Virus record (IMG/VR): IMGVR_UViG_3300021373_003356 | Span: 1 to 38,706 of that record | DNA: 38,706 nucleotides | From: a virus | Strand: one strand, 5' to 3' | Notes under the pieces: model-generated | Databases searched by the model: none | What the model was told of the DNA's origin: nothing | What the model saw: the letters and a program-made list of their open reading frames with translations, nothing else | Program-made: the position numbers and the translations under genes | Shown here: positions 3,001 through 35,511 of the stretch, piece after piece | Position numbering within the stretch: the stretch's first letter is position 1 | Layout of the letters: each line of letters starts with the position of its first letter

Positions 3001-3710
3001 CGAAGTTTATCACAGGTGCTTACTCATCTCAAGCCGCTTCAGAGCGTTTCTTGCCAAATGGTGAGACTGGTTCTATCGCCGATGCTAAGTTCCAGAAGAT
3101 AACGCCAGACGTGAACATTCAGTTTGATAAGCCACGTGCTATCTACAATGAAGATGTTACTGATGGCACAAGTGGTCTGGGTGGCGGAACACCAGGTAAC
3201 ACCGAGTCTGTCTATATCAAAATTGATATGAAGACCGCAAACGACTATGTGTCACCAATCGTTGACTTACAACGTGCATCACTTGGGCTTGCAGGTATCT
3301 GCATCAACGATTCGGCTGAAAATACTCCGTTGAATTATGTGCCTGAGACTCGTGCAAACGGTGGTTCAAATGCGTCTCGACACATTACTGCACCTGTAAC
3401 GCTTGAAGTGCCAGCAACAGGGCTTGATGTGAAGACTGATTTGAATATACCACAAGGTTGTGCCGTAGACTTCTACTATAGAACCTGCGCAGGCGATCAA
3501 GTTCTCTCTGAGCAACCATGGGTATATCGAGCACCCGAAACACCTGTGCCTGAGACACAACGTGGTGAATTCACTCGTGCACAATACTTGCCTGGAAACA
3601 GAGGCGGTGATCTACCGCCGTTTACTCAAGTACAGACCAAGTACGTGATGAAAGGATCAGGGCAAGGACCTTCACTCAGAAACTTCGAAAATAAATACTT
3701 GGCGAAATAA
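3..3710 (+). CDS. Large virion structural (tail/baseplate-associated) protein, 5' end outside window
   Basis: The reading frame is open from base 3, so the true start lies upstream; the ATG at 174 is internal. At least 1235 residues are present. The sequence resembles the large structural proteins of marine T4-like phages that begin with a DUF4815-type region; that N-terminal part would be outside the window. Visible parts are a short helical stretch near base 630-760 (YTMADIAKLETKVDDLKSY), a beta-rich middle, a jelly-roll-like segment at about 2120-2620 (LSQTFYVDNQFGATLTKV), an inserted small beta module at about 2690-2930 (HGFKVGDTV ... NGTYTI), and a C-terminal beta domain. There is no signal peptide or catalytic motif. 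It overlaps the next gene by one base (TAATG), implying coupled translation. The family assignment is from remembered resemblance; its exact place in the virion is inferred. Confidence 0.8.
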   Translation, partial: LTQVDSAIDVVNGEVILGQPDVQEIVSVTRDNGVDVTESFILDDGQRDNYYDISKLILKDGADDPGNVNVTMKYFARGAGKFFGPGSYASIPYKDVPDHTLNDGTTVSLRNFFDFRPDKAWSTKATDEFVNINYLPQSGTSISADADYYLPRADKLIATQEGDIQVLMGQQSKDPQLKPTPDNSLELYQILMNANTHSEEDVQIRAIEHKHYTMADIAKLETKVDDLKSYTELNINELRALFEASLDSDGLEREASGFMVDDVQDQTGSETENEDYAASIDPENNLIRPLVDEDNIRLVMETDNTISTNVTKKGDNVYVDYTSTEWKKQDLASGFVNINPFGRVDNVGTIKLSPSSDEWKDSKEEAIKAVVGTSRLDTKQAFLWNNWAWNWKGRADEDLWYSNDYGEEQRGAVRTRKTLSQSDRYASVPGNRNAGGYVRRVVSRDTLRKRIGRRYIDLALIPWIRSRRIYFKAQGLKPNTKFTPFFDGKDVSAWCKPETTFVQWADRTDDNSNKFQYNSLTGHPFSSGQTGEELVSDANGEVIGSFWIPNLKPAYYIARRGKRRRIKQTYLRFRAGVREFKLLDISENNWAAADSKAFAYYSVMGSLPHIYANIFSTRFGNKVWPLPNAGSFPASFSPQELKKTLDAVGTGDVGLFRPYKSGQYGPQDGFLNTAALNTIDADGEMSTVLSDYINVNNKQFAGNTILPLNLPQNPLSQTFYVDNQFGATLTKVKLYFRKKDSGNIPISIHIRPVVDGKPSMSDIVPDSHVFKNPADVVAIGLEPTISTLLAAPTTFEFDEPVLLKPWTHYAIVVQTASTEYEIFSAKTGQAVLGEPSRPISTQPQLGKLFLPQNGVYWFESKDQDLAITLERAVFDVGGGSLVLKSLPAPAKALESNPIQLNDQNQTATVAHPCHGFKVGDTVQIDSADGISNLTSAQVNGTYTITAQDHTGYQFDIGVQSDSDITGGGVKVLATRNIIFDVANPTIETVIPNFTSAEYSAKFITGAYSSQAASERFLPNGETGSIADAKFQKITPDVNIQFDKPRAIYNEDVTDGTSGLGGGTPGNTESVYIKIDMKTANDYVSPIVDLQRASLGLAGICINDSAENTPLNYVPETRANGGSNASRHITAPVTLEVPATGLDVKTDLNIPQGCAVDFYYRTCAGDQVLSEQPWVYRAPETPVPETQRGEFTRAQYLPGNRGGDLPPFTQVQTKYVMKGSGQGPSLRNFENKYLAK

Positions 3711-3937
3711 TGAAAAAATTTGAAGAAGTGGTCGGGCACCCGGACTTAGTCCGGGATCCCGAAACCCGCGCTATACTGAATGTAAACCACGAAAAGATCG
3801 AAGCATACCGCAAACGCAAAGAAGAACGCAAAAGACTCAAAGCAGAAAGACAAGACGTTGATGATCGGCTATCAACCCTCGAAGGTGATATGGCTGAGAT
3901 CAAGTCTATGCTAACCCTACTGACCAAAAACATATAA
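3710..3937 (+). CDS. Small coiled-coil protein conserved in marine T4-like phages
   Basis: A 75-residue protein whose ATG overlaps the stop of the preceding gene (TAATG). The N-terminus (EEVVGHPDLVRDPETRAILN) matches a short protein I recall next to structural genes in T4-like cyanophages. A very basic/acidic helix (residues 30-50, KRKEERKRLKAERQ) follows, then a C-terminal heptad-like helix (LSTLEGDMAEIKSMLTLL), so an oligomeric coiled coil is likely. Its function is unknown. Its position between two very large virion proteins would suit an assembly factor or connector, but this is inference. The TAA stop is embedded in the late promoter of the next gene. Confidence 0.8.
   Translation: MKKFEEVVGHPDLVRDPETRAILNVNHEKIEAYRKRKEERKRLKAERQDVDDRLSTLEGDMAEIKSMLTLLTKNI
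3739..3755. other. Perfect GC-rich hairpin inside the start of the small coiled-coil gene
   Basis: CCCGGAC at 3739-3745 and GTCCGGG at 3749-3755 form a perfect 7-bp stem with a 3-base TTA loop, in a locally GC-rich patch that continues with GGGATCCCG. There is no T-tract, so it is not a standard terminator. It lies about 30 bases into the coding sequence and could affect mRNA processing or translation. It may also simply reflect the protein sequence. Confidence 0.5.
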
Positions 3938-3940
3938 ATA
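3933..3940 (+). promoter_or_regulatory. T4-type late promoter for the giant tetrad-repeat gene
   Basis: A perfect TATAAATA, the T4 late promoter consensus recognised by RNA polymerase with the gp55-family late sigma factor and the sliding clamp. It lies 33 bases before the ATG at 3973. The upstream gene's stop codon (3935-3937) lies within it. Confidence 0.8.
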
Positions 3941-3972
3941 GGGACAACGATTTTTACTGTTGAGCCTGTTTA

Positions 3973-6900
3973 ATGTCTTCTGTACCGTTTCGCTTTGCGA
4001 ATGATACAAATAATACTGGAGCGATCAAAGAATTTTTGGTCTCTGAGGAAGACTATCTGGCTTACCGTGCCGGTAAGTTTCTCAGTCAGTTTAGCAAGAC
4101 AGAATCATCTGCACTAACCGACGGGCAAACATCAACAACAGTTACGATTGGTGAATACGAAGACACCATCTATAACGAAAATCTACCTACTGATCCTCCT
4201 GTCACAAAGACTCGACAATATGTCGCAACAGTCACGGGTAGTGTTGACAGACACGCACTCGTGTTTGCAGGACCTCCTTTACCACCTCTTGTCTATGAAG
4301 ATGATACGCTTATCATCAAAGTCAGACTTGATATTAGTCATGATGAACTAGAAGAAGCACAGGCAGAAATTATTTTAGCCAACTCTCTTTCAGCCAACGT
4401 GACAGTATCCGCTTCACCAGCCGCGACATCGATTGTAGGCAATCGTGTTACATGGGAGGATTTTGGTTCTGGGCTTTCAGGAGCCTATGAAGCGACATAT
4501 ACACTTACGTTCACAGACACCAGTGCAGGATCAATATCGATAGTCACTACATCGACTGATCCAGATAACCAAGAATCAATCGATGAATCTGGTAGTGCAA
4601 CATACTACTTGCGTGTTGAAGATGCAAACGCTTTTGGTTGTGAGTCTGTACTCACAACTGAACTTTATCAAGAATCCGGAACAATTCAAGAGACAGGACC
4701 CGACAAGAGAAATCCTGTTTACTTTGATCGTGTAAGAAATGGTCTGAAAGAAATGAACGAGTCAGAGTTAGATGCTCTTGTCACTCGACTCGTTGGTAAC
4801 CTGGTTAAAAATGAACGACCTGGGTCATTTAGGTTATCTGCTGGTAGTCCAGGTGCTGATTGGGAAGTCTGGCTAGAAGACATCTTTGTCGATACACGAT
4901 CAGACGGATCACAACAGACCTTCTCAATATGGCTACGCAAAGATGCGCCTCAGCCTACAATGTATAAGCCACTTGCTATTCTACGTGAAAGTAGTAACTT
5001 TGCCGGTCTGAAAGAAATGAATGACACACAGATCGAGTTCACGTTTGGTGAACGTGCGAAGCGTGTCATTATGGAAAGCAAGGTCGGCACATATCAGTTA
5101 CGATCAAGCGAACAAGGTGCGCCCACAGATCCCGGTACTTGGGAACAGAGAGGCTTTGCACTCGATACAAGATTATCATACGAAGAGACAGGTGAATATG
5201 AATCAGTAGCCTCATATGATGCAGAGTACGTTGAAACTTACATACCGAATTACATCGCAGAATATGTTTCGGAATATGTACCTACGTATGAAGGCGAATA
5301 TCTATCAGCATATTCAGACGAATACGAAAGCAATTATATTTTTGATTACGAAGGTAGTTATCAGTCAGATTATGAATCTGATTATGAGTCAGACTATGCT
5401 TCTGAATATATTGCCGCTTATGATTCAGAGTATTGTGATGACTATGGTGAAGATTATATTGGCACGTATCAGGGCGAGATCGATCAAGGTTTCTATACGA
5501 CAGCCTATGAAGGCGCAGATTATTCTGGCTTCTATGAAGGCACAGATGATTATGAAGGGCAACCGTACGCAAGTATTTACTCAGGCGAACTTTATACAGT
5601 GGAGTATGCATCGGAATATGCATCACAATACACAGGTGGTTATGAAGGCATTGTTGGTGAACCGTATGAAGGTGCTTATGAAGGTGTAGACGTAGAGCCA
5701 TATGAAGGCACATACGAAAGTCTCTATGAGTCTGATTATACGGGCGATTATGCAACACAAGTCACTGAACCATATATTGGCGATTATGTTGGGCAAATAG
5801 AAGAGCCATATGAAGGCGGATACGGTACCAATTACACTGGCACTTATATTGGCGAATATACTTCTCAGATCGAAGAAGAATATACGGGCGAATATGTCGG
5901 CACTTCAGGCGAGCCTTACACTGGTGGTTACGAAGGCACACTACTTCAGCCATATATTGGCGCATACGAAGGCGGCGACGAAGAGCCATATATTGGTGTG
6001 TACACTGGGCAACTCGATGAGAACTACGTTGGTTCTTATGAAGGCGATCAGACAGAAGGTTATGTTGGACAATACGAAGCAATCATTGGCGAGCCATATG
6101 CAGGCGAGTATGCGGGTGTAAATGTTGAGCCTTATACCGGTGAATATGAAGGTGTTCTGCTAGAGCCTTACACTGGACAATATGAAGGCATATATGAATC
6201 AGAATATCTTGGGCAGTATGCTGGTGGTATAATCGAACCATATGTCGGTGACTATGAAGGTGTAAACACTGAACCATATACTGGACAATACGAAGGGCTT
6301 TATACATCTTTGTACGCAGGCGAATATGGCGGCGAAGACCTTGAGCCATATGCCGGCGAATACGAAGGCATTGATCCAGAGCCTTATACTGGCTTCTATG
6401 AAGGCGCTTACACATCATTATATGCTGGTGAATATGTCGGCATCAATCAAGAGCCATATGCTGGCGAATATACAGGTGGTGTTGAAGAAACATACACTGG
6501 TGAATATACGGGTATCAACACTGAGCCGTATGAAGGGCAGTATGAAGGGCAATACGAAGCAGTTTACATTGGTCCGTATACAGGAGTCCTTGAAGAGCCT
6601 TACGCCGGAGAATATGCCGGTACAAATGTAGAGCCTTATATTGGTGAATACTCAGGCGTCTATGCTTCTCAATATATTGGACCTTATGAAGGTGTTAATG
6701 CTGAACCTTATATCGGGCAGTACGCTGGTGGTATTCTTGAAACATATGAAGGTGGGTACGAGGGACTTTACGAATCTTTATACACCGGCTCATATACAGG
6801 AATCGATGAAGAACCATACGCCGGCGGTTATGTGGGTCAAGATCTTGAGCCGTATACGGGCGAATATATCGGTATTATTGCAGAGCCGTATACTGGGCAA

Positions 6901-9900
6901 TATGAAGGCATCTATGAATCTGACTATCAAGGGCTTTACACTGGTGTCGATGAAGAACCTTATATCGGGCAGTATGCTGGTGGTGTAATCGAACCATATA
7001 TTGGTGATTATGAAGGTATCAACGCAGAGCCGTATACCGGTCAATATTCAGGTGTATATGAATCTGATTATATTGGCGGATACGAAGGCGTTGACCTAGA
7101 ACCGTATACGGGTGCATACACTGGGCAAATAGTTGAGCCATATGCTGGTGAATATGCCGGTGATGTTATTCAGCCATATGAAGGCGCATATGAAGGGCTC
7201 TACACCTCTGTTTATATCGGAGATTATGCCGGTGGTGTTATTGAACCATATACTGGTGAATATGTTGGGCAACCTGTTGAGCCATATACTGGCGCTTACG
7301 AAGGTGTTCTTGATGAACCATATACTGGCGTATATCAAGGGCAATATTTAGGAACGTATGTTGGTGATTATGCCGGTACAAACGTTGAACCATATGCCGG
7401 CGAATATGAAGGTATTGATCTAGAACCATACACTGGTGCATATACTGGGCAAGATTTAGAGAATTACATCGGCGGGTATGAAAGAACAATTTCTGAGCCA
7501 TATGCAGGTCAGTATACCGGACAAGTTCAAGAAGGGTATGTTGGCGATTACGAATCAGATTATTCAGGTGAATATCTGGGCACATACGTTGGTGAGACTG
7601 ATGAAACTTATGAAGGCACATACGAACAGTTAGTCATTGAGCCATACACAGGTGCATATACTGGGCAAGACTTAGAAAACTATACAGGATTCTATGAAGG
7701 ACCTGTAGACGAAGATTATCTTGGCGGTTACGTGGGTACATATCAAGGCATCTACGTAGGCGAATACGCGGGTGCGGATGATGAGCCATATGTCGGTGGC
7801 TACGAAGGCAATATCAACCAAACATATCTTGGCACTTATGTCGGCACCTATATCGGTGAATATTCAGGCGGCTATACTGGGCAAGATCCAGAGCCTTACA
7901 CTGGGCAATATACCGGGCAAATTGAACAACCATATATTGGATCATATGAGGGTACATACCTAGGCATATACGGCGGGCAATACGAAGGTGTTGATTTAGA
8001 ACCATATACAGGTGCATACACAGGCGTTGATACTGAGCCTTATGAAGGTGCATATCCAGAAACGTATGAAGGCACATACACAGGCGAATACACTGGTAAC
8101 GTTGAACAACCTTATACTGGCGGATACACAGGTATTGTTCAACAGCCATATGAAGGCGAGTATGGCGGTGGTTATCTCGGCACTTATGTGGGTAACTACG
8201 AACGCACTCTTGACGAACCATATACTGGTGGTTACGAACGTGCGCAAGATCAAACCTACATTGGCTCATACACTGGGCAATACGAAGGCGCCGCTCAAGA
8301 AGCATATGGCGGTACTTACATAGGAACATATACTGGTGTTTATGCTGGGCAATATGGCGGTCTGGTTGATGAGCCTTATGCTGGTCCTTATACTGGGCAA
8401 TATACTGGACAATATGAAGGTCAGGCACAACAACCATACGTTGGTCCTTATACCGGAAGTTACACGGGGCAATATACGGGCGTCGATCCTGAGGGCTATG
8501 AAGGTCCTTATACTGGTCCTTATACTGGGCAATATACAGGTAATGATTCAGAGCCGTATGTTGGCGCATACACTGGTACTTACGAAGGGCAATATACGGG
8601 CGTTGATAATGAACCTTACCTTGGCACGTATACAGGTTCTTACACTGGGCAATATACTGGGCAACCACAACAAACCTATGCCGGTAGTTACACTGGTTCT
8701 TACACTGGGCAATATGAAGGTGTTATAGGGCAAACGTATGAAGGTCCTTACACCGGTTCTTACACTGGACAGTATACTGGCCAGCCACAGCAAAACTACG
8801 TGGGTCCTTACACCGGTTCTTACACTGGGCAATATACTGGGCAACCACAACAAACCTACGTGGGTTCATATACCGGCGGATACACTGGGCAATATACTGG
8901 GCAGCCACAGCAAAATTATGCAGGTTCTTATACCGGCGGTTACACTGGGCAGTATACTGGCCAGCCACAGCAAAACTACGTGGGTTCTTACACTGGGCAA
9001 TATGTCGGTGCTTATACTGGGCAACCACAACAAACCTTTGTGGGCAATTATACCGGCGGTTATACTGGGCAATACACTGGGCAGATCGGGCAACAGTATG
9101 AAGGTCCTTATGTCGGCAGTTATACTGGACAGTATACTGGGCAAGCACAAGAAAACTATGAGGGCGTTTATACCGGTTTTTATACAGGGCAGTACACGGG
9201 TAACGTACAACAAAACTATGTGGGTGGTTATACCGGTAGTTATGTTGGTCAATACACTGGGCAAGTGCAACAAAACTACGCGGGACCATATACCGGAGGT
9301 TATACTGGACAATATACTGGGCAGCCACAGCAAAATTATGAAGGTGCTTACGTTGGGCAATATACTGGGCAATATACCGGTGCACCGCTAGAGGGATATC
9401 TTGGTACTTATGTTGGTACTTACTTTGGCAATTATACTGGACAAGTAGGGCAGTCCTATCTTGGAACGTATAACGCACCGGGATCTCAGAACTATAACTT
9501 GAGATTCGGTAATGACGCCGGAAGTTTCCAGGATTTTCCTGATCCCATATACAACACGAATAATTCAGCATCAAACATGAACGCCCCGTCAACGATTTAT
9601 GTCGGTGATACTGTTACCGTCGATGTTGATATTGACTGGGACTTCGGTGTTAATGGACCTTATGATATAAGAACTGGTGTTCGAAATATTGGTACTTGTT
9701 CAACCACTGTTTCAATCACGAATGTCACTGGTTCAGGATTTTCATCAAGCACGTCTTTGGGTATTCCACCATACAGTGGCACAAACCAAGGTATTAGCAA
9801 CACCAATGTACCTTCATCCACGACCTTTGGTTCCGCTAATTGTGATGTTACATATACAATTACTGGTACAGGTACTTTCCGACTATCAGGTCGTTGCGGT

Positions 9901-12900
9901 TGGGGCGACGGTGAATACTCTGCTCCTTTCCAGCAATTAGGGCAGTATCGCTCGCAATCAGGTACCTCATCAACAGTTGCGGCCGCACAGCCGGCGTCTT
10001 ACGAAGGTTTATATACTGGTTTTTACGAAAGAACACAATCAACGCCGTATTCAGGTCCTTATGAAGGTCCATATTTTGGCACCTACACTCGACAGCAAGA
10101 TAGTTCGATAGATCAATCTTATGCTGGCACATATACCGGTTCGTATGAACGTACTCAAGACGGCACGAACCAAGAAACATATCAGGGAACATACACCGGT
10201 TCATATGAGCGTACTCAAGATAGCGCGGCTCAAGAGACATATCAAGGCACCTACACTGGTTCTTATCAACGGACTCAAGAAGAAACTATCAACGAATTGT
10301 ATTTTGGCACCTATACTGGTTCTTATCAACGGGTTCAAGATGGTACAAACCAAGAGACATATCTTGGTACATACACCGGAACGTATGAACGTCAACAAGA
10401 CGGTACAAACCAAGAAACGTATACGGGTGCATATGTCGGCTCTTACGAACGTACCCAAGCCACCCCGGTTAATGAGACATATCAAGGTACGTATACCGGT
10501 ACCTATGAACGTACACAGGATGGCACAAACCAAGAGCCGTATGAAGGTACGTATACCGGTACCTATGAGCGTACTCAAGACGGTACGAACCAAGAAACCT
10601 ATGAAGGCCCATATACCGGTACCTATGAGCGTACTCAAGATGGCACGAACCAAGAAACGTATGAAGGTACGTATACCGGTACATACGAACGTGTTCAAGA
10701 TGGCACGAACCAAGAAACCTATGTTGGATCATATACTGGTGGCTATACTCGATTACAAGATGGTACAAACCAAGAGACATATGAAGGCGGCTATACCGGT
10801 TCGTATGAACGTACACAGGATGGCACAAACCAAGAGCCGTATGAAGGGCAATACATCGGCACTTATGAAAGAACTCAGCCGGGCACGAACCAAGAAACCT
10901 ATGAAGGCACATATGTCGGTGAATACGAGCGTACTCAAGATGGCACGAACCTTGAAACCTACATTGGTAATTACACCGGTGCTTATGAACGTACCCAAGA
11001 CGGCACGAACCAAGAAACCTATGAAGGCACATATACCGGTGGCTATACTCGATTACAAGACGGCACAAATGATGAGACTTACGAAGGCACATACACAGGT
11101 CAGTATGCTCGTGAAGTTGAACAACCATATGAAGGCAATACACAAGAGCCTTATGAAGGTTCTTATGTAGGAAGTTATATTCGACAACAAGACTCTACAC
11201 AAGAAGAGCCGTATGTCGGGCAATATACCGGTCTTGCACAAGAGCCTTACATTGGGCAGTATACAGGTATTGTAGAACAGCCATATGAAGGTGAATATCT
11301 GGGCGCATATCTGGGCACTTACGTTGGTGGTTATGAGCGCACAGACTTTGAAACATATGCTGGCGGTTACGAGAGAACACAGCCAGAGCCTTATGCTGGT
11401 CCTTATACTGGGCAGTACCTTGGCACATATATCGGTGATTACACTCGAAGTGATTTCGAAACATATATTGGCGACTACACACGAGTCATAGAAGAAAATT
11501 ATGAAGGCACATATGCAGGCATATATGAAGGCGCATATGTCGGCTCTTATGAGCGTTCACAAGATGAAGAATATATTGGTGAGTATGAGCGAACAATTGG
11601 CGAGACTTACGATGGTCCTTATCAAGGTCCTTACGAAGGTCCATACATCGGCACGTACACGAGAATCGACTTTGAAACTTACGAAGGGCAATATGGTCGT
11701 ATCGAAGATGAACCATATGAAGGCTCTTATCAAGGCGAATATGCGGGCATTTATACGGGCTCTTACGCAAGGCAAATTGAAAAAACTTACGAAGGCAGTT
11801 ACGAGCGAATTGACTTTGAGACGTATGATGGAAACTACATTGGCGGTTATGCCGGCAACTACATTGGCCAATACGTAGAAGATGCTGAAGAGCCTTACAC
11901 TGGTGTTTACACAAGCAATTACACCGGCGATTATGGTGGTGATTACGAACGAACTGATTTCGAAACTTATGTGGGTGAATATACAAGCATTGACTTTGAA
12001 GGTTATCAAGGTGAATATGAGAGAACCGACTTTGAAACGTATGTTGGTGACTACACACGAATTGATTTCGAAACATATCAGGGTGATTATAGCCGAGTTG
12101 ATTTCGAACCATACGAAGGCGCTTATGTGGGACCGTATGAAGGTCAATATGTCGGGCAATATACGCGAATCGACTTTGAGACGTATCAAGGCATTTACGA
12201 AAGAGCGGCCTTTGAAACGTATTCTGGTGAGTATGGTCGTATCGAAGATGAACCATATGATTCAACTTATTCGGGCGAAGAACTCGAAACATATGATGGC
12301 ACATATTCACGTATAGATTTTGAAACTTATGCCGGCGAGTATGAGCGAAATGACTTTGAAGGATATATCGGTGATTATACTCGAACAGACTTTGAAACAT
12401 ATACATCGGCTTATGAGGGAAATCAAGACGAAGAATATGTTGGCGAGTACACAAGAACAGACTTTGAAACATATTCGGGTGAATATGGTCGTCTCGAAGA
12501 TGAACCTTATGTGGGTGATTATACTCGCGATGATCCCGAAACATATACATCGTCTTATGCAGGTCAGATGGATGAAGAGTATGTTGGCGAGTACACTCGC
12601 GAAGACTTTGAAACGTATCAAGGCGCATACGAAAGAGAAATAACAGAGCCTTATATTGGTAACTATGAACGTACAATCGAAGAAGATTATACGGCACAGT
12701 ATGTGGGTGATCAGTTAGAGTCTTATCAAGGCGAGTATGGTCGTGAAGAGGATGAACCTTATGTCGGTGAATATACTCGCATTGACTTTGAGACCTACGA
12801 AAGTGTTTATGAGGGTGACCAGCAAGAGCCTTATGATGGTGAATATTCTCGTATAGACTTTGAAACTTACGTTGGTAATTATGAACGTACCATCGAAGAG

Positions 12901-14409
12901 CCATATGCATCAGACTATGTTGGACAACAGAATGAAACTTATGATGGTGAATATACTCGTGTTGATTACGAAAACTATACTGGCGTTTATGGTCGTACCG
13001 ACTTTGAGACTTATGTTGGCGAGTATGAAAGAACTGACTTTGAAACATATGATTCAACTTATGTTGGAGATCAAGAAGAAACATACATTGGCGAGTATAC
13101 TCGAATCGAGTTTGAAACTTATGTAGGTAACTATGGGCGTATCGACTTTGAGACTTATGACAGTACTTACTCAGGATCAGAAGACGAGACATATGATGGT
13201 CAGTATACTCGTGTAGATTTTGAAACCTACGAAGGTGCGTATGGTAGAGTTGATGATGAACCATACGTAAGTGCTTATGTTGGTCAACAAGATGAAGAGT
13301 ATATCGGCAACTACACACGCATCGACTATGAAACTTATGCGGGCGAATATGGCCGTATCGATTTCGAAACATATGTCGGCGAATACACCCGTCAGATAGA
13401 TGAGCCTTACGCTGGAATCTATGCTGGTGTCTATGAAGGTGAATACACCGGGCAATACGAGCGTGACGATTTTGAAACATATGTGGGCACATATGGTCGT
13501 ATTGATTTCGAGACCTACGTAGGCGATTACACTCGTATAGACTTTGAAACTTATGAAGGTGGTTATACTCGTACAGATTACGAGAGATATGCCGCGCTTT
13601 ATGAAAGAGAAATATCAGAGCCGTATGAAGGCGGTTATATGCCAGATGATTACGTAGGCACATATCAAGGCTTCTACGAGAGAACTGACTTCGAGACATA
13701 TACTGGTTTTTACGAAACAGAATACGAAGGCGCATATGGTTCTGCTTACGAAGGACCTGTTCTTGAAACATATGATGGTGATTATGTTAGTGAAGATCCA
13801 GAATCCTATGAAGGCGGCTATATTCGAGATGATTTTGAGACCTACGAAAGTGCTTATGAGTCTGTCTATGAATTTGACTATGAAGCCTCGTATGAATCAG
13901 ATTATACACCAAACTATGTGCAAGATTATGAAGGTGATTATGCAGGCACATACGAATCTCTATACATAGGCGATTACACAGCCACCTATGACGGTGAAGC
14001 ATATGGCGTGCTTTACGAAACGTGTTATGAGTCTGCATATCAGAACGAATATGAGTCGATTTATACCGCAAGATACTCATCTGAATATACAAGTGATTAT
14101 GGCGGCGCTAATTACGGCAGCGACTACGCTTCTGAGTATGGCACTGATTATGAAAGTGGATACATAGGACCGTATGACGCACCTGGATATGAGTCTGCAT
14201 ACGGCACTATACCTGCACCAGTACCAGGACCTAACGCAGAGTATGGCGGCTTAAGCCCGCTTGAAGGCAGACCGGCTGAATATGCCGCATATGACGGTGA
14301 TGGTTATGTGTCAACTTATGATGTGGTTGACACTTATGGTGGTGATAGAAGTCTTGTGCCACCGCCTGTTGAAGTTGAAATATATACTCTTTACGTGAGA
14401 GTTGCATAA
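3973..14409 (+). CDS. Giant tyrosine/glycine tetrapeptide-repeat virion protein (putative fibre)
   Basis: A 3478-residue protein. Residues 1-400 are a non-repetitive beta-rich head, probably the virion attachment part. From about residue 404 to 3415 nearly everything is built of four-residue units starting with Tyr (Y-x-G-x, Y-E-S-D, Y-T-R-x), in which some units replace Tyr but keep the four-residue spacing (VNVEP, QPQQN, DFET). Only a globular beta domain at 1835-2011 and a few phase slips near both ends break this. The last 60 residues are Pro-rich and non-repetitive. There is no signal peptide, transmembrane segment or catalytic motif. I recall shorter aromatic-x-Gly/Arg-x tracts in uncharacterised proteins of marine T4-like phages, so this is probably an extreme member of an unnamed family. 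A late promoter sits 33 bases upstream; no strong Shine-Dalgarno is seen. The role as a long adhesive or spacer fibre is inferred. Confidence 0.9.
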   Translation: MSSVPFRFANDTNNTGAIKEFLVSEEDYLAYRAGKFLSQFSKTESSALTDGQTSTTVTIGEYEDTIYNENLPTDPPVTKTRQYVATVTGSVDRHALVFAGPPLPPLVYEDDTLIIKVRLDISHDELEEAQAEIILANSLSANVTVSASPAATSIVGNRVTWEDFGSGLSGAYEATYTLTFTDTSAGSISIVTTSTDPDNQESIDESGSATYYLRVEDANAFGCESVLTTELYQESGTIQETGPDKRNPVYFDRVRNGLKEMNESELDALVTRLVGNLVKNERPGSFRLSAGSPGADWEVWLEDIFVDTRSDGSQQTFSIWLRKDAPQPTMYKPLAILRESSNFAGLKEMNDTQIEFTFGERAKRVIMESKVGTYQLRSSEQGAPTDPGTWEQRGFALDTRLSYEETGEYESVASYDAEYVETYIPNYIAEYVSEYVPTYEGEYLSAYSDEYESNYIFDYEGSYQSDYESDYESDYASEYIAAYDSEYCDDYGEDYIGTYQGEIDQGFYTTAYEGADYSGFYEGTDDYEGQPYASIYSGELYTVEYASEYASQYTGGYEGIVGEPYEGAYEGVDVEPYEGTYESLYESDYTGDYATQVTEPYIGDYVGQIEEPYEGGYGTNYTGTYIGEYTSQIEEEYTGEYVGTSGEPYTGGYEGTLLQPYIGAYEGGDEEPYIGVYTGQLDENYVGSYEGDQTEGYVGQYEAIIGEPYAGEYAGVNVEPYTGEYEGVLLEPYTGQYEGIYESEYLGQYAGGIIEPYVGDYEGVNTEPYTGQYEGLYTSLYAGEYGGEDLEPYAGEYEGIDPEPYTGFYEGAYTSLYAGEYVGINQEPYAGEYTGGVEETYTGEYTGINTEPYEGQYEGQYEAVYIGPYTGVLEEPYAGEYAGTNVEPYIGEYSGVYASQYIGPYEGVNAEPYIGQYAGGILETYEGGYEGLYESLYTGSYTGIDEEPYAGGYVGQDLEPYTGEYIGIIAEPYTGQYEGIYESDYQGLYTGVDEEPYIGQYAGGVIEPYIGDYEGINAEPYTGQYSGVYESDYIGGYEGVDLEPYTGAYTGQIVEPYAGEYAGDVIQPYEGAYEGLYTSVYIGDYAGGVIEPYTGEYVGQPVEPYTGAYEGVLDEPYTGVYQGQYLGTYVGDYAGTNVEPYAGEYEGIDLEPYTGAYTGQDLENYIGGYERTISEPYAGQYTGQVQEGYVGDYESDYSGEYLGTYVGETDETYEGTYEQLVIEPYTGAYTGQDLENYTGFYEGPVDEDYLGGYVGTYQGIYVGEYAGADDEPYVGGYEGNINQTYLGTYVGTYIGEYSGGYTGQDPEPYTGQYTGQIEQPYIGSYEGTYLGIYGGQYEGVDLEPYTGAYTGVDTEPYEGAYPETYEGTYTGEYTGNVEQPYTGGYTGIVQQPYEGEYGGGYLGTYVGNYERTLDEPYTGGYERAQDQTYIGSYTGQYEGAAQEAYGGTYIGTYTGVYAGQYGGLVDEPYAGPYTGQYTGQYEGQAQQPYVGPYTGSYTGQYTGVDPEGYEGPYTGPYTGQYTGNDSEPYVGAYTGTYEGQYTGVDNEPYLGTYTGSYTGQYTGQPQQTYAGSYTGSYTGQYEGVIGQTYEGPYTGSYTGQYTGQPQQNYVGPYTGSYTGQYTGQPQQTYVGSYTGGYTGQYTGQPQQNYAGSYTGGYTGQYTGQPQQNYVGSYTGQYVGAYTGQPQQTFVGNYTGGYTGQYTGQIGQQYEGPYVGSYTGQYTGQAQENYEGVYTGFYTGQYTGNVQQNYVGGYTGSYVGQYTGQVQQNYAGPYTGGYTGQYTGQPQQNYEGAYVGQYTGQYTGAPLEGYLGTYVGTYFGNYTGQVGQSYLGTYNAPGSQNYNLRFGNDAGSFQDFPDPIYNTNNSASNMNAPSTIYVGDTVTVDVDIDWDFGVNGPYDIRTGVRNIGTCSTTVSITNVTGSGFSSSTSLGIPPYSGTNQGISNTNVPSSTTFGSANCDVTYTITGTGTFRLSGRCGWGDGEYSAPFQQLGQYRSQSGTSSTVAAAQPASYEGLYTGFYERTQSTPYSGPYEGPYFGTYTRQQDSSIDQSYAGTYTGSYERTQDGTNQETYQGTYTGSYERTQDSAAQETYQGTYTGSYQRTQEETINELYFGTYTGSYQRVQDGTNQETYLGTYTGTYERQQDGTNQETYTGAYVGSYERTQATPVNETYQGTYTGTYERTQDGTNQEPYEGTYTGTYERTQDGTNQETYEGPYTGTYERTQDGTNQETYEGTYTGTYERVQDGTNQETYVGSYTGGYTRLQDGTNQETYEGGYTGSYERTQDGTNQEPYEGQYIGTYERTQPGTNQETYEGTYVGEYERTQDGTNLETYIGNYTGAYERTQDGTNQETYEGTYTGGYTRLQDGTNDETYEGTYTGQYAREVEQPYEGNTQEPYEGSYVGSYIRQQDSTQEEPYVGQYTGLAQEPYIGQYTGIVEQPYEGEYLGAYLGTYVGGYERTDFETYAGGYERTQPEPYAGPYTGQYLGTYIGDYTRSDFETYIGDYTRVIEENYEGTYAGIYEGAYVGSYERSQDEEYIGEYERTIGETYDGPYQGPYEGPYIGTYTRIDFETYEGQYGRIEDEPYEGSYQGEYAGIYTGSYARQIEKTYEGSYERIDFETYDGNYIGGYAGNYIGQYVEDAEEPYTGVYTSNYTGDYGGDYERTDFETYVGEYTSIDFEGYQGEYERTDFETYVGDYTRIDFETYQGDYSRVDFEPYEGAYVGPYEGQYVGQYTRIDFETYQGIYERAAFETYSGEYGRIEDEPYDSTYSGEELETYDGTYSRIDFETYAGEYERNDFEGYIGDYTRTDFETYTSAYEGNQDEEYVGEYTRTDFETYSGEYGRLEDEPYVGDYTRDDPETYTSSYAGQMDEEYVGEYTREDFETYQGAYEREITEPYIGNYERTIEEDYTAQYVGDQLESYQGEYGREEDEPYVGEYTRIDFETYESVYEGDQQEPYDGEYSRIDFETYVGNYERTIEEPYASDYVGQQNETYDGEYTRVDYENYTGVYGRTDFETYVGEYERTDFETYDSTYVGDQEETYIGEYTRIEFETYVGNYGRIDFETYDSTYSGSEDETYDGQYTRVDFETYEGAYGRVDDEPYVSAYVGQQDEEYIGNYTRIDYETYAGEYGRIDFETYVGEYTRQIDEPYAGIYAGVYEGEYTGQYERDDFETYVGTYGRIDFETYVGDYTRIDFETYEGGYTRTDYERYAALYEREISEPYEGGYMPDDYVGTYQGFYERTDFETYTGFYETEYEGAYGSAYEGPVLETYDGDYVSEDPESYEGGYIRDDFETYESAYESVYEFDYEASYESDYTPNYVQDYEGDYAGTYESLYIGDYTATYDGEAYGVLYETCYESAYQNEYESIYTARYSSEYTSDYGGANYGSDYASEYGTDYESGYIGPYDAPGYESAYGTIPAPVPGPNAEYGGLSPLEGRPAEYAAYDGDGYVSTYDVVDTYGGDRSLVPPPVEVEIYTLYVRVA
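5182..5630 (+). repeat. Block A: acidic Tyr tetrads (YESD/YASE type)
   Basis: Coding repeat, residues about 404-553 of the giant protein. It has Tyr at every fourth residue with acidic and Ser-rich fillers (YESDYESDYASEY) and little Gly. The tetrad phase slips several times between about 5490 and 5600, then becomes regular. Confidence 0.85.
5631..8380 (+). repeat. Block B: EPYxGxYxG tetrads
   Basis: Coding repeat, residues about 554-1470. Its unit is typically Y-x-G-x, Y-x-G-x, then a Tyr-less tetrad ending in Glu-Pro (for example YTGEYEGVNVEP), giving mostly 12-residue periods mixed with longer runs of Tyr tetrads. Arg is rare. DNA copies are diverged by synonymous changes (TAT/TAC, GGT/GGC/GGG), suggesting an old array held by protein-level selection. 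Confidence 0.85.
8381..9474 (+). repeat. Block C: 20-residue (60-bp) Gln-rich tetrad repeat
   Basis: Coding repeat, residues about 1470-1834. The five-tetrad unit is YTGQ-YTGQ-PQQN-YVGS-YTGS and variants, so the DNA repeats with a 60-base period. It is neutral, rich in Tyr, Thr, Gly and Gln, and almost free of charge compared with its neighbours. Confidence 0.85.
9475..10005 (+). other. Globular beta domain interrupting the Tyr-tetrad array
   Basis: Residues about 1835-2011 of the giant protein are non-repetitive. The segment holds NAPSTIYVGDTVTVDVDIDW, alternating hydrophobic strands and three Cys residues (GTCST, ANCDV, GRCGW). The pattern suggests an Ig-like beta sandwich. It separates the Arg-poor first half of the repeat from the Arg-containing second half. 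Confidence 0.7.
10081..11100 (+). repeat. Block D: 17 tandem 60-bp units (YERTQDGTNQET)
   Basis: Coding repeat, residues about 2037-2376. The 20-residue unit is YERT-QDGT-NQET-YEGT-YTGT, repeated about 17 times in exact 60-base register. Stretches such as tggcacgaaccaagaaac are identical in several units, so this is the least diverged, probably most recently expanded, part of the gene. A shorter related stretch flanks each end. Confidence 0.9.
11300..13840 (+). repeat. Block E: 12-residue (36-bp) YTRIDFETYVGE repeats
   Basis: Coding repeat, residues about 2443-3290. The core unit is three tetrads, Y-T/E/G-R-x, D-F-E-T, Y-x-G-x. Alternating Arg and Asp/Glu make it zwitterionic, unlike blocks B and C. 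Variants include YGRIEDEPY and YVGQQDEEY. Several dozen units are present, all in tetrad phase. Confidence 0.85.
13841..14220 (+). repeat. Block A': acidic Tyr tetrads returning at the C-terminus
   Basis: Coding repeat, residues about 3290-3415. The YESx/YxSD composition of block A returns (YESAYESVYEFDYEASYESD), with increasing phase slips toward the end. The block order is therefore nearly symmetric around the central domain. Confidence 0.75.
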
Positions 14410-14421
14410 TGAGGATACTCA

Positions 14422-14877
14422 ATGACAAAAGTGGAATTTTTACCAGATGCGTTTTGGGAAGAGGCTGATCGCTCAAAACTGAAGTGCATTCGGATAAAAC
14501 ATCTTGAAGATGGCCGCCGAAAAAAAGACGTTCTTTCTCTCGATAAACTACAGGCTGATGGTAGCCCGAATCCTGTCTACGACGAAGCAGTAAATGCAAT
14601 CACAATTAAAGTTATTGATGAATACACCGCGAAACGTCGAGAGAGAAAAGAGCGAGAACACAAAGATATTCAAACTCGCAAAAAAATGGAAGAAGAGTCG
14701 AAGAAACTAGGCGACTTATTCTACATTAAGATGCGAGCCATGGAGATCGAATCGGTCAAGAATACAGAAAATAAGAAGTTGCGTTCTCGCATACGAAGAG
14801 CCGCAAATGAAATTGAAGTCAATGCTGTTGTTGCATTAATCATTGGTGAAGAATTAGGAATGTTTAAGAATGACTAA
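14422..14877 (+). CDS. Charged helical protein, possible fibre-assembly factor
   Basis: 151 residues, with a good ribosome site (GAGGAT, 14411-14416) and ATG at 14422. Residues 1-60 look globular (MTKVEFLPDAFWEEADRS); residues 65-125 form a long Lys/Arg/Glu-rich helix; the end is hydrophobic (NAVVALIIGEELGMF). I do not recognise a named family, though similar short charged proteins occur beside fibre genes in marine T4-like phages. The stop overlaps the next gene by 8 bases, so it is translated in one unit with the two enzymes that follow. A role in folding or presenting the giant fibre is inferred from position only. Confidence 0.75.
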   Translation: MTKVEFLPDAFWEEADRSKLKCIRIKHLEDGRRKKDVLSLDKLQADGSPNPVYDEAVNAITIKVIDEYTAKRRERKEREHKDIQTRKKMEEESKKLGDLFYIKMRAMEIESVKNTENKKLRSRIRRAANEIEVNAVVALIIGEELGMFKND

Positions 14878-15619
14878 AGGTTTTGTTGTTGTTGCATCAC
14901 GTAAAAAATTCTTTTATCTCTCTGCAATCAATCTAATCGAATCAATCAAAGACTTCTATCCTGAGGCTGACTGCACGTTATTTACCGAAGAAAGATTTCT
15001 TGACGGGCAAGAACGATGTGCTGATCGTGTAGAGTTTGTTGATGATCACAAGAGAGCCAAGTGCCTTGGCATGGCTCGAACACCTTATGATCAGACTTTC
15101 TATATCGACGCGGACTGCGAGGTCGAACACGAAGACATTGCTACAGTATTTGATCATCTAGGCGATAATGATTTAGTCTGGACAGGGTTGCCACCTGAGA
15201 GACATTACTGTTATGCTGAAGTGTATTTTCCTGGAGCCACAAAACCTGACGGATCACCAGGCGGCTTTGAACTTTGTGGTGGCGTGTGTCTGTATAACTC
15301 AAGCAAGCCTATCGTGAAAGAGTTTATGCAAGACTGGTTTGATCTAACCGTAGAGCAATATGCTGGGCGTTGGTGGCCGCTTGATGAAAACGGCAACGAA
15401 GATCTAGACAACTATCCGGCATCGTTCAAGAGATGGGATCAATTCTCATTGTGGTGGTTGTTGAACAAAGAGCCGAAGTATGCTGATCTAAAAGTCGGTA
15501 TCTTTGAAGATGATGCTCGTTGGAACTTTTTCAATGGCTATTTAAAACCTCACAACAAAGAACCTGTAGTTGTACGACACTACTCGAACGTGAAAGCGAA
15601 GCATGAACACTACGATTAG
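14870..15619 (+). CDS. GT-A-fold glycosyltransferase (GT8-like)
   Basis: 249 residues. It begins with a Rossmann-like strand (GFVVVASRKKFFYLSAINLI) typical of nucleotide-sugar transferases. It carries a DxD metal/donor site at Asp80-Ala-Asp82 in the context FYIDADCEV, a Gly-rich acceptor-side segment near residues 122-146 (GGFELCGGVCLYNSS), and a C-terminal VVRHYSNVK motif. The length suits a single-domain retaining enzyme. It would transfer a sugar in the infected cell's cytoplasm; donor and acceptor cannot be read from the sequence. AGGAA at 14856-14860 is its ribosome site. It overlaps both neighbours (8 and 17 bases). Its place right after a giant Tyr/Thr-rich protein makes that protein a plausible acceptor; host-envelope or other fibre substrates remain possible. 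Confidence 0.8.
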   Translation: MTKGFVVVASRKKFFYLSAINLIESIKDFYPEADCTLFTEERFLDGQERCADRVEFVDDHKRAKCLGMARTPYDQTFYIDADCEVEHEDIATVFDHLGDNDLVWTGLPPERHYCYAEVYFPGATKPDGSPGGFELCGGVCLYNSSKPIVKEFMQDWFDLTVEQYAGRWWPLDENGNEDLDNYPASFKRWDQFSLWWLLNKEPKYADLKVGIFEDDARWNFFNGYLKPHNKEPVVVRHYSNVKAKHEHYD

Positions 15620-16298
15620 AACCGGGCTCAAAGATATACCGCTGAATGATTTTGCGTTAAATCTACTATCGAAATCAGAATGGTTTCATAAAGAAGAAAA
15701 CTATAACGCAACAATCAAAGGCTTCGATCAGTATCATAATGATAAAGACGCAGATTATTATACTGGTGAAGAGTATATGCGTGAGATTATGGCAAAGAAT
15801 CAGGATCATGATGGTTTTCCTGAAGTCATTGTATCACACTCTTTTGGTAAAACAAACCTTAAATTTCAACCGAATCAGGCACACCGTGATCTAGAGGTGC
15901 TTGAACAGATCGAGAAAGTCAACAACACACTTCAACGCAATCTGTGTCTTAAGCAAAACGCTTTGTTCGCTGTCTATCCGCCCGGTGGATATATCTCGTG
16001 GCACAACAACGCAAATGCACCCGCATACAATCTCATATTCACATACTCTGAGACTGGAGATGGTTGGTTCCAGTACTATGATATGTCAAAAGAGAAAGTG
16101 ATTACTATACAAGATAAGCCTGGTTGGCAATGCAAGGGTGGATATTTTGGTGCATATGCACAGCCTCGACGCACGTGGTGCTATCATGCCGCAAGAAACG
16201 GGCATTCAGGCATCCGAATGACAATTGCATACACTTTTGACAGACACCAGATGTCAATGAACATTCAAGACGATGTGATTGAAGATATTAGCGCCTGA
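15603..16298 (+). CDS. Probable 2-oxoglutarate/Fe(II)-dependent oxygenase
   Basis: 231 residues, starting 17 bases inside the glycosyltransferase gene. The C-terminal half has the double-stranded beta-helix pattern of 2OG oxygenases. His134 lies in GYISWHNN, His195 in TWCYHAA, and Arg205, ten residues later, in GIRMTIAYTF would bind 2-oxoglutarate. The usual acidic metal ligand two residues after the first His is Asn136 here (H-x-N). Residues such as GDGWFQYYD and KPGWQCKGGYFGAY fit sequences I recall from marine T4-like phages. Family members hydroxylate Pro, Asp/Asn, Lys or other substrates; which applies here is unknown. Gene order suggests it modifies a virion protein, together with the adjacent transferase. 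Confidence 0.7.
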   Translation: MNTTIRTGLKDIPLNDFALNLLSKSEWFHKEENYNATIKGFDQYHNDKDADYYTGEEYMREIMAKNQDHDGFPEVIVSHSFGKTNLKFQPNQAHRDLEVLEQIEKVNNTLQRNLCLKQNALFAVYPPGGYISWHNNANAPAYNLIFTYSETGDGWFQYYDMSKEKVITIQDKPGWQCKGGYFGAYAQPRRTWCYHAARNGHSGIRMTIAYTFDRHQMSMNIQDDVIEDISA

Positions 16299-16302
16299 AA
16301 TG

Positions 16303-16310
16303 TATAAATA
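16303..16310 (+). promoter_or_regulatory. T4-type late promoter
   Basis: A perfect TATAAATA, 32 bases before the ATG at 16342 and just after the stop of the oxygenase gene. The spacing to the start codon matches the other late promoters in the window (25-33 bases). Confidence 0.8.
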
Positions 16311-16341: not shown

Positions 16342-16692
16342 ATGGCGCACTATGAAGATCTCACAATTGACCAAGGTACAGATGTAACCATTGACATCTA
16401 TCTGGTCAATCCCGACGGAACAAAGAAAGATCTGACAGGTTACTCACCTGCGGCTCGCATGGCTCTTGGTTATGATGCCGACTCTGATTCTAAGATTGCT
16501 TTTTCGGCTGCCGTTAAGTCACCTTCTACGGACGGTATTGTTAATCTGTCACTCACGAACACACAAACCGCTGACCTCAAGCACAAGAAGCGGTACGTAT
16601 ACGATGTAGAAATCAAAAAAGATTCAGATGGCACCACACTTGTTGAGCGAGTTCTTGAAGGATTAATTACTGTCACACCTCAAGTCACCTAA
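16342..16692 (+). CDS. Small Ig-like virion structural protein
   Basis: 116 residues, all-beta in appearance. It starts YEDLTIDQGTDVTIDIYL and ends VYDVEIKKDSDGTTLVERVLEGLITVTPQVT. This pattern is shared by many small phage baseplate or fibre-adaptor proteins (BppU N-terminal-like fold). It heads a new late transcript and sits 10 bases before a tail-fibre gene, so it may be an adaptor that joins a fibre to the baseplate. That role is inferred. Confidence 0.75.
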   Translation: MAHYEDLTIDQGTDVTIDIYLVNPDGTKKDLTGYSPAARMALGYDADSDSKIAFSAAVKSPSTDGIVNLSLTNTQTADLKHKKRYVYDVEIKKDSDGTTLVERVLEGLITVTPQVT

Positions 16693-17956: not shown

Positions 17957-20900
17957 ATGGCATCACGTAAGAAAATTTTACTACCAAGAAGCGATATTCC
18001 GGGTCGTGCGCCGACTCTGAATGAAATCGACTTTGGTGAGATTGCAATCAACACGCATGATGGTAAAGCCTTCATCAAACGTGATCGTGATGGTGAAGTC
18101 AGTATTCAATCTATTGGTAGTGAAGATGTTGATAACGTCTATTATGTTTCAAAATCGGGTCAGTATGGTAATGACGGTCGCTCTCTAGGTAATTCATTTC
18201 GTACAGTAGACTCTGCTGTTGAGCGAGTAACAGCACTTCAGAGTTTCAAGTTCAACGAAGATATTTGTGAGCGTGACTTGCAACTTATCATGGACGCGGT
18301 GCGTTATGATATGGTGTTGAACACAAACTATGGTGCGGTCACCGCAGGTAACTCATACAAGCGTGGTAATGCGGCGAAAGTAACGAACGAACAGAAGTAT
18401 CAGACACGAAGAGCGATTAACGAAGAGCGTGTTGGTATGATCTCTGCTCCTCTTGTTGCGGCTAACACGGTTGCAACTGAGCGTATCGTTAACGCATTCA
18501 CAGAAATCATTGATATATTTTACGATGGCGAGCCAGATGATTTGTACTTCACTGATCCACCCATCGAAGCACAGACAGACGCAAACGCCGCGGCGAATGC
18601 ACTGCAAGCAAATCGTACCGCGATTCAAGATGCTGTCGTAACATATGTCAATAATGCATACATTGCACCATACAATCAAGAGAAGTGCCGGCGTGACGTT
18701 GGTCTTATCATCGATGCGATTGCTGATGACTTAGTTCTTGGTACAAACTACAACACAATTACAGCCGGCTTTTCATACAAGCGAGCCAACTCTGCTTATG
18801 TTCTGAGTGATCAAAGAGAGATCACTATCGATGCAATCAACTACGCAATCGGTGAAGTTAATGCTCTGGTTGGTGTAACAAGCGATGCAACGATCAATAC
18901 GCTTGTTGATAACATCACAGATGTGCTTGAGAATCCAGACAGTGCGACATATGGTGCTGGTCAGTTTATCATCGATTATGCGACTACAGCGGGCTCTACT
19001 TATCAGATTACTCAAAGAGATTCAGCAACTCAGGCATTGCAAGACAATCGCCAAGCAATCATTGATGCGGTTGACTCTTATACACAAAACACTTTAGCAC
19101 TCAGCGGATATGATTCAGTTAAGTGTAAGCGAGATACAGGTTTCATTATTGATGCACTGTCATATGACATCAAGTATGGTGGTAATACTGCCTCTCGTAA
19201 AAATGCTCAAGCATATTTTGTTGGCACCAAGAATCAGTTAGGCTATGACAGTGATGAGATTGTTAATACTGCACTAGCGTTTGAGCATCTCAAAGTTGTG
19301 ACTGATGATTACATTTTGCGTGACTCAGAACGTGGTCGAGTTGATACACTGGTTGATCTGATTGTTGAAGTTATTAATGATCGATCTTTGACCAATCTCG
19401 ATGCTGAAGCGGGTATCGAACTTGGTGGCATCAACTCAGCAAACACCACTGAGAGAACAACCATTCTGAATGGCAAGTCTACGATTCAAGATGATACGAT
19501 AGATTATGTTGATACAAACTGGGCAATCAAGACCACGAACATTAAGTCTTATGATGCAGGTAAATGTTCGAGAGACGTTGGTCTTATTATTGATGCCGTA
19601 GCAAGAGACTTGATACTCGGTACAAACTACAACACGAACACTGCTGGCTGGTCTTATAAACGAGCCAACTCTGCGTATGTACTCAGCGATCAGAAAGAAG
19701 CAACAATCAAGGCACTAGAATTTGGTCGAGACTTCTTGACTGGCAGAGATGATGTTGTCCAAGACTCAGCGATCGGTGTATTGTTTGATAACGTAATTAA
19801 TGTTCTTGACGGTACTACAGACACGTACCCAACAATGTCATACCCAACGACTACTGGCGCGACATATCAAACTACTGTACGTAACAATGCCGCTACAGCC
19901 CTACAGACTAACCGAGCCACATTGATTTCAGATCTGTCATCATGGATCGGCACAAACTATCCAAACTTTGTGTATGATTCGGCAGCCTGTGAAAGAGACA
20001 CCGGTTATCTGATCGATGCATTGACACACGATGTTAAGTACGGCGGTAACACCGCCTCTCGTGCGGCCGCTCAGGCTTACTTTGTAGGCACTGAAGACAC
20101 AAGAGATTATGACTTGCATCCTGGTGATCTATACGGGCAGTTAGATTCCGATGAAGTCGAACCAACAGTGGCCGCCTTCAATCAATTAGATACGTTGATC
20201 GATACTTACGTAACAACAAGCAACGAAAGAACCAAGATTTCTGATCTGATCGGTATTGTCACTGAAGTTCTTGAAGATCGCAGTCTCAACGGGCTTGATG
20301 CTTCATCTGAGATTGAACTTGGTGGGCTAGGCGACTCAGAGTTTAATGCGATTCTGAATAATCGAGAAGAAACACAAGATGCAGTTGTTGCTTATGTTGA
20401 TGAAAACTTTGCACAGCAAGCCTCATTACCCGACTATGATCAACAGAAATGTTATCGAGACACAGGTTTAATTCTTGATGCCGTCCGTCGCGACTTGCTT
20501 ATTGGTACAGACTATAACACAATCACGGCAGCCTTTGCTTACAAGAGAGCAAACTCTACGAAGGTGCTTACAGATCAATTAACGAATACTATTCGTGCGA
20601 TTGAATTTGCTCGTGATGAAACACAAGATCTTTCGTCTGTTTCGACCGATTTGTCTACTCTGTTTAAACGTTTTACAGATGTACTCAATGACTATACGAC
20701 TGAGTACACAACACCTACGTATCCGACAACGGTTGGTTCTACTTTCCAGCAAACATTAGACGGAGAGAGAATTGATTTTGCAACAGATGTTCAAGCCTCT
20801 CGACAAACACTTATCGATGATCTTATCACATGGATTGGTGAAAATGAACCTACGGTACAATACAACCGTGCCAAGTGTGAGAGAGATACTGGATATGTTC

Positions 20901-35508: not shown

Positions 35509-35511
35509 AGT

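Follow-up and report, generated by a model that had tools for sequence, protein, structure and literature searches.

Glycogenin glucosylates its own tyrosine and, like the other GT8 enzymes LgtC and WaaO, combines a GT-A fold with a DxD site and a C-terminal metal-ligand His. Prolyl 4-hydroxylases (P4H), OGFOD1, Tpa1 and AspH are built on a double-stranded beta-helix with a Y-x-x-G-(x)n-H lead-in and a recurrent spacing of the distal His and Arg. Collagen and the plant hydroxyproline-rich glycoproteins are repetitive proteins that undergo enzymatic modification, and tyrosine O-glycosylation is established in bacterial S-layers (PMC2943079). Among phages, glycosylation of the virion by phage-encoded glycosyltransferases has been suggested, for example for mycobacteriophage Maravista (PMC11256854), and the tail fibres of cyanophages such as S-RIM2 carry VTGN repeats with an x-x-Gly-x four-residue period that includes Thr and Asn/Asp.

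The locus described here lies in a window of 38.7 kb (38,706 nucleotides, the whole stretch of DNA that was analysed), a fragment of a virus record that carries marine T4-like structural genes, and comprises a giant repeat gene followed by a cassette of three short genes encoding a helical protein (HEL), a glycosyltransferase-like protein (GT) and an oxygenase-like protein (OG). GT resembles the GT8 enzymes in its predicted fold and its DxD, and possibly in a C-terminal His at a putative metal-ligand position; unlike them, it is recognised neither by the PF01501 profile nor by profile comparison with Escherichia coli WaaO/WaaJ, and lies in a phage late operon beside a repeat fibre. OG shares the predicted beta-helix, lead-in and distal His/Arg spacing of the P4H and AspH groups, but has an invariant H-x-N, no Pfam match and a presumed substrate poor in Pro. 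As in collagen and the plant glycoproteins, a repetitive protein is accompanied by two candidate modifying enzymes, although the repeat is composed of Tyr, Gly and Thr rather than Pro and Lys, with no sign of hydroxyproline or hydroxylysine chemistry. The likeness to the Maravista proposal is that of a phage-encoded enzyme acting, here putatively, on a virion protein; the difference is that a single late operon here combines the enzyme, the presumed substrate, a conserved helper and a partner of oxygenase fold. The VTGN repeats of S-RIM2 have the same period, again with Thr and Asn/Asp, but an aliphatic first residue where the Tyr tetrads have an aromatic one, and no cassette. The four genes probably constitute a dedicated fibre-maturation operon, in which GT and OG would modify the repeat, with tyrosine as the likeliest acceptor.

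The four-gene unit and its late promoters

The unit lies between fibre and baseplate genes and is made up as follows.

3933..3940, + strand: late promoter motif TATAAATA, T4-type, just 5' of the repeat gene
3973..14409, + strand: giant Tyr-tetrad repeat gene (3478 aa, 16% Tyr, [YF]-x-G-x), presumed fibre and presumed substrate
14422..14877, + strand: HEL, helical basic protein (151 aa), presumed fibre chaperone or adaptor, present in 45/50 tetrad contigs
14870..15619, + strand: GT, GT-A-fold glycosyltransferase-like protein (249 aa) by model, Foldseek and alignment; D80xD82 and H237 invariant
15603..16298, + strand: OG, 2OG-oxygenase-fold protein (231 aa) by model, Foldseek and conservation; H134-x-N136, H195, R205
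16303..16310, + strand: late promoter motif TATAAATA, T4-type, ending the unit, 5' of the phrog_1084/3304 gene
16342-16692: phrog_1084/3304 gene, the first past the closing late promoter

The preliminary description had placed three overlapping genes between the tetrad gene and the next late promoter, and the open reading frames are found exactly there: HEL starts 12 bases past the stop of the tetrad gene, and the overlaps amount to 8 bases (HEL/GT) and 17 bases (GT/OG). Exact copies of TATAAATA number four in the window against 1.9 expected, a count reached by 11 of 100 shuffles, and all four lie on the + strand, roughly 25-33 bases 5' of a gene start. In the 90 distinct relatives that preserve the block order, the late motif occurs between OG and the next gene in 87/90 and 5' of the repeat gene in 41/56, whereas it is found within the repeat gene in 1/83 and between the repeat end and the OG end in 10/90. 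This placement, flanking the unit and nearly absent within it in both the window and its relatives, makes the four genes look like one late transcription unit; the transcript shared with the tetrad gene, as proposed earlier, is thus a well-supported prediction from promoter signals.

The repeat protein contains 561 Tyr in 3478 aa, 359 of them followed by a further Tyr at i+4, where shuffled sequence gives 90; Phe partly substitutes for Tyr at the aromatic position (at i+4, Phe 21% against Tyr 37%). The commonest repeat residue is Thr (median 13%), often following Tyr. A stretch of the giant protein, GTYQLRSSEQGAPTDPGTWEQRG, resembles the pre-repeat region of short tetrad proteins from other phages. 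Of the substrate envisaged in the preliminary description, with regularly spaced Tyr, Thr, Pro, Asn and Asp, the tetrad and its Tyr spacing hold up, but Pro is scarce: 4.3% in the window protein and a median of 1.8% across 91 relatives, with Lys at 0.4% in the window protein. With Pro rare and Lys rarer still, collagen-like chemistry is unlikely; the analogy with collagen and hydroxyproline-rich proteins drawn at the outset is not borne out, and prolyl or lysyl modification of the collagen type was rejected on repeat composition.

Predicted folds of GT, OG and HEL

Searches of GT, OG and HEL against Pfam, PHROG and PDB sequences, as single proteins and as profiles, assigned no family and returned only weak PHROG matches; the enzyme assignments draw on AlphaFold models built on alignments of 65 (OG) and 50 (GT) viral relatives. 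The GT model (pLDDT 96) retrieves the retaining GT-A enzymes LgtC, GT6, glycogenin and LARGE1 in Foldseek, with 531 PDB matches at E<=0.001 and LgtC as the best (3.6e-9); on this confident model the predicted fold of GT is GT-A, of the retaining type seen in GT8, GT6 and glycogenin. D80-A-D82 and the C-terminal H237, which sits in an HYS/HYT motif close to the C-terminus, are aligned without exception across 24 diverse members; these are presumably the metal-ligand positions of GT8 enzymes such as glycogenin, H237 being the likely counterpart of the His in the GT8 HxxGxxKPW motif. The GT-A DxD site noted earlier from the letters alone is accordingly invariant in the family and set in a predicted GT-A fold. 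The relationship is visible in structure prediction, whereas the PF01501 (GT8) profile matched 0/50 GT members as well as leaving the GT of phage C48C1 unmatched, and hhalign of the GT profile against E. coli WaaO and WaaJ gave probabilities of 1-3%.

OG is likewise confidently modelled (pLDDT 95), as a double-stranded beta-helix predicted to be of the prolyl-hydroxylase/OGFOD1/AspH kind; Foldseek returns P4H (7e-6), OGFOD1, Tpa1, AspH and PHD2, at low global TM-scores of 0.3-0.4. No Pfam match was obtained, and comparison of the OG profile with E. coli YbiX and the 2OG proteins of Pelagibacter phage Mosig gave nothing significant. The 2OG-oxygenase core claimed in the preliminary description is right as to fold and the placement of its residues. 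Its metal motif, which closes the second core strand, reads H134-N-N136, however, where the canonical form is H-x-D. OG thus shares the predicted fold of the 2OG superfamily but departs from the canonical HxD/E...H facial triad, with HxN invariant and the distal H195 and R205 in place. Rather than a hydroxylase, OG could be an inactive or differently active beta-helix chaperone or scaffold, the chemistry being performed by GT alone, and the presence of Asn at position 136 in every cassette member, in the divergent group described below and in the paralogues gives this reading an appreciable, if minority, share of the probability. Weighing against it are the retention of His134, His195 and Arg205 at 98-100%, as metal and 2OG binding would require; the presence among the fold matches of AspH-type enzymes, which function with two His only; and the match of two OG members to phrog_81 (2OG-Fe(II) oxygenase), the sole sequence hint for the family. 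If the model is right, OG would offer a natural H-x-N oxygenase family for study.

HEL is basic and helix-rich, with five invariant residues. The window HEL gave no significant family in Pfam or PHROG and matched no known chaperone family; one of 50 HEL members matches phrog_1795 (tail fibre) at 0.0014.

Linkage of the cassette to Tyr-tetrad repeats

Three samples of viral contigs bear on the association. Of 91 distinct loci picked by GT or OG, 89 have a repeat gene with at least 6% Tyr no more than 6 kb 5' of HEL, directly adjacent in 85; the remaining two (L145 and L159) are on contigs that stop before the position of the tetrad gene in their relatives, and two loci of the same layout (L144 and L138) have it. 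A cassette-blind sample, picked by the DNA pattern for YTGxYTGxY, yielded 50 contigs with a real Tyr-tetrad open reading frame, which carry GT in 44/50, OG in 44/50 and HEL in 45/50. Of the six that lack GT, four are truncated at or within the unit and a fifth one gene past the repeat, leaving one clear exception (G027/L362), a 36-kb contig encoding a 586-aa Tyr-tetrad protein (3086-4843) without GT, OG or HEL. The same sample also brought in a divergent group whose tetrad proteins are short (~320-450 aa) and which keeps the three genes. A scan of genome collections gave three matches, all to phage-like contigs in metagenome bins with Tyr tetrads nearby. The module is now backed by more than a hundred viral contigs rather than one sequence.

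Control contigs, 50 in number, were picked for tetrads with Val or Leu replacing Tyr. GT matches occur in 2/50, one of them marginal (22.9 bits), and OG matches in 1/50; the single true GT (1/50, contig G117) belongs to a cassette directly preceded by a Tyr tetrad. Contigs with chance pattern matches and no scored Tyr-tetrad open reading frame likewise have GT in 1/20 (L275), where a short Tyr-tetrad stretch precedes the cassette. The co-occurrence across phages that the preliminary description had called for is thus seen, GT being present in 44/50 Tyr-tetrad against 1/50 Val/Leu contigs (Fisher p = 3e-20), and its counter-possibility, that the enzymes are just as common in phages without tetrad proteins, did not come true.

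The linkage is more than a frozen gene order, and survives rearrangement: L495 has GT on the opposite side of the repeat, L275 has GT and OG in exchanged order, L074-L077 have a second repeat gene inserted between the two enzyme genes, and in L138 and L144 three other genes separate repeat from cassette. The GenBank controls, eight marine T4-like phages, have no GT genome-wide (0/8) and no Tyr tetrads in the regions fetched; seven of the eight have the same flanking gene as the cassette phages, and in several nothing lies between the VrlC/GC112 genes and the phrog_1084-type gene, so that repeat and cassette appear to be either both present or both absent. The cassette phages examined all appear to fall into one broad marine T4-like group, and lineage therefore accounts for part of the association.

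Across 50,697 GenBank phage records, GT, HEL or OG were detected solely in C48C1 at the thresholds used; two of the protein families are absent from Pfam and PHROG and, with C48C1 as the one GenBank record, nearly absent from isolated phages. Literature searches found no paper on C48C1 and, for tyrosine glycosylation of phage fibres, nothing on a cassette-repeat system. Two cassette contigs (L495 and L496) are binned in bacterial metagenome-assembled genomes, one labelled Bifidobacterium breve, and are probably misbinned virus sequence.

Proposed fibre maturation and the acceptor residue

As the three genes occur almost exclusively with Tyr-repeat fibres, the phages of this widespread marine group probably decorate their own fibres chemically. 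The repeat gene, HEL, GT and OG would be co-transcribed late in infection; HEL may hold or present the newly made repeat protein; GT, as a putative metal-dependent retaining GT-A enzyme, would transfer sugar from a nucleotide sugar to repeat side chains, most likely Tyr hydroxyls; OG would act on the repeat protein as well, probably as a hydroxylase, either ahead of GT or following it, the hydroxylation-first order of the preliminary description being a conjecture; and the phage would bear a long decorated fibre.

Tyrosine specifically as the GT acceptor is given somewhat less than an even chance, and stands as the leading candidate on composition: cassette-bearing and cassette-free tetrads differ by Tyr, while Thr, Gly, Asn and Asp are common to both, and this difference from the enzyme-free Val tetrads points to Tyr. 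The glycogenin-like fold and the tyrosine O-glycosylation of S-layers are consistent with it. The partial substitution of Tyr by Phe, however, means that the aromatic may be structural alone, with the enzymes acting on neighbouring residues. The sugar might then go on Thr/Ser or Asn/Asp, as the abundance of Thr and its position next to Tyr would allow; this is judged improbable, though not negligibly so, given that the Val/Leu tetrads, which also present T, G, N and D, lack the enzymes. The cassette is kept with repeats of the YTGN, YIDNIDYIDN (L140) and [YF]xGxR (L074, L080, L083) types, and the L140 repeat, Tyr-rich with little Thr or Gly, also argues against a Thr acceptor.

A target outside the repeat, whether other tail fibres, a host surface glycan or DNA, would reduce the linkage to co-residence in one late operon of a variable tail-fibre region. 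The site between fibre and baseplate genes holds other enzyme genes elsewhere, as in Mosig, and OG occurs in one to three copies per genome, many cassette genomes having paralogues away from any repeat gene, so the OG family is not confined to the repeat; some paralogues lie near uvsY-type genes, and cyanophage P4H-domain genes in such a position were once linked to repair (PMC2984593). GT, by comparison, is present in one copy per genome, accompanies Tyr-repeat genes and not Val repeats, and keeps its linkage through gene shuffling, which leaves such a target quite unlikely. Simple hitchhiking, with cassette and Tyr-repeat gene both marking one phage clade and no functional tie between them, is very unlikely: the loci examined are all marine T4-like, and protein distances among GT, OG and HEL correlate no better mutually than with a neighbouring gene, but the operon and promoter layout is conserved, adjacency is retained through reordering and the cassette persists while the repeat shifts from YTGN to YIDN and [YF]xGxR types.

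Modification of the repeat by GT and OG thus remains the preferred reading. Its boldest form, a widespread and hitherto unrecognised system in which a self-contained four-gene late operon makes giant Tyr-repeat fibres and a new family of glycosyltransferases, with an H-x-N oxygenase family beside it, modifies them densely and periodically at Tyr, is a tentative and rather doubtful extension. Were hundreds of regularly spaced Tyr in the fibre to be modified, such density would be unusual for a virion protein and would bear on marine phage adsorption, resistance to proteolysis and escape from host recognition; a candidate substrate-enzyme pair within one operon also provides natural material for studies of tyrosine glycosylation.

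The Val/Leu tetrads (NVTGNLTGD; L202 5195-10933, L368-L447) occur in cyanophage and many other viral tail proteins and repeat every four residues, as the Tyr tetrads do; a single fibre fold may underlie both, in an aliphatic and an aromatic version. In C48C1 (L003), positions 35326-37226 encode a nucleotide-sugar epimerase together with a UDP-glucose dehydrogenase-like protein, which might supply the sugar donor; strong epimerase matches occur in 8/11 cassette genomes and in controls too, and were therefore not counted as evidence. The same genome has two further H-x-N oxygenase copies (18252-18917 and 40130-40801), one adjoining uvsY and the other a gene for a NifU-like Fe-S protein, and several related genomes also hold further OG-family copies. 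The corresponding locus of Mosig (L199 1-15000) is occupied by AspH-like, aminotransferase, MoaA-like, methyltransferase and dioxygenase genes and may represent a further modification island at this fibre position.
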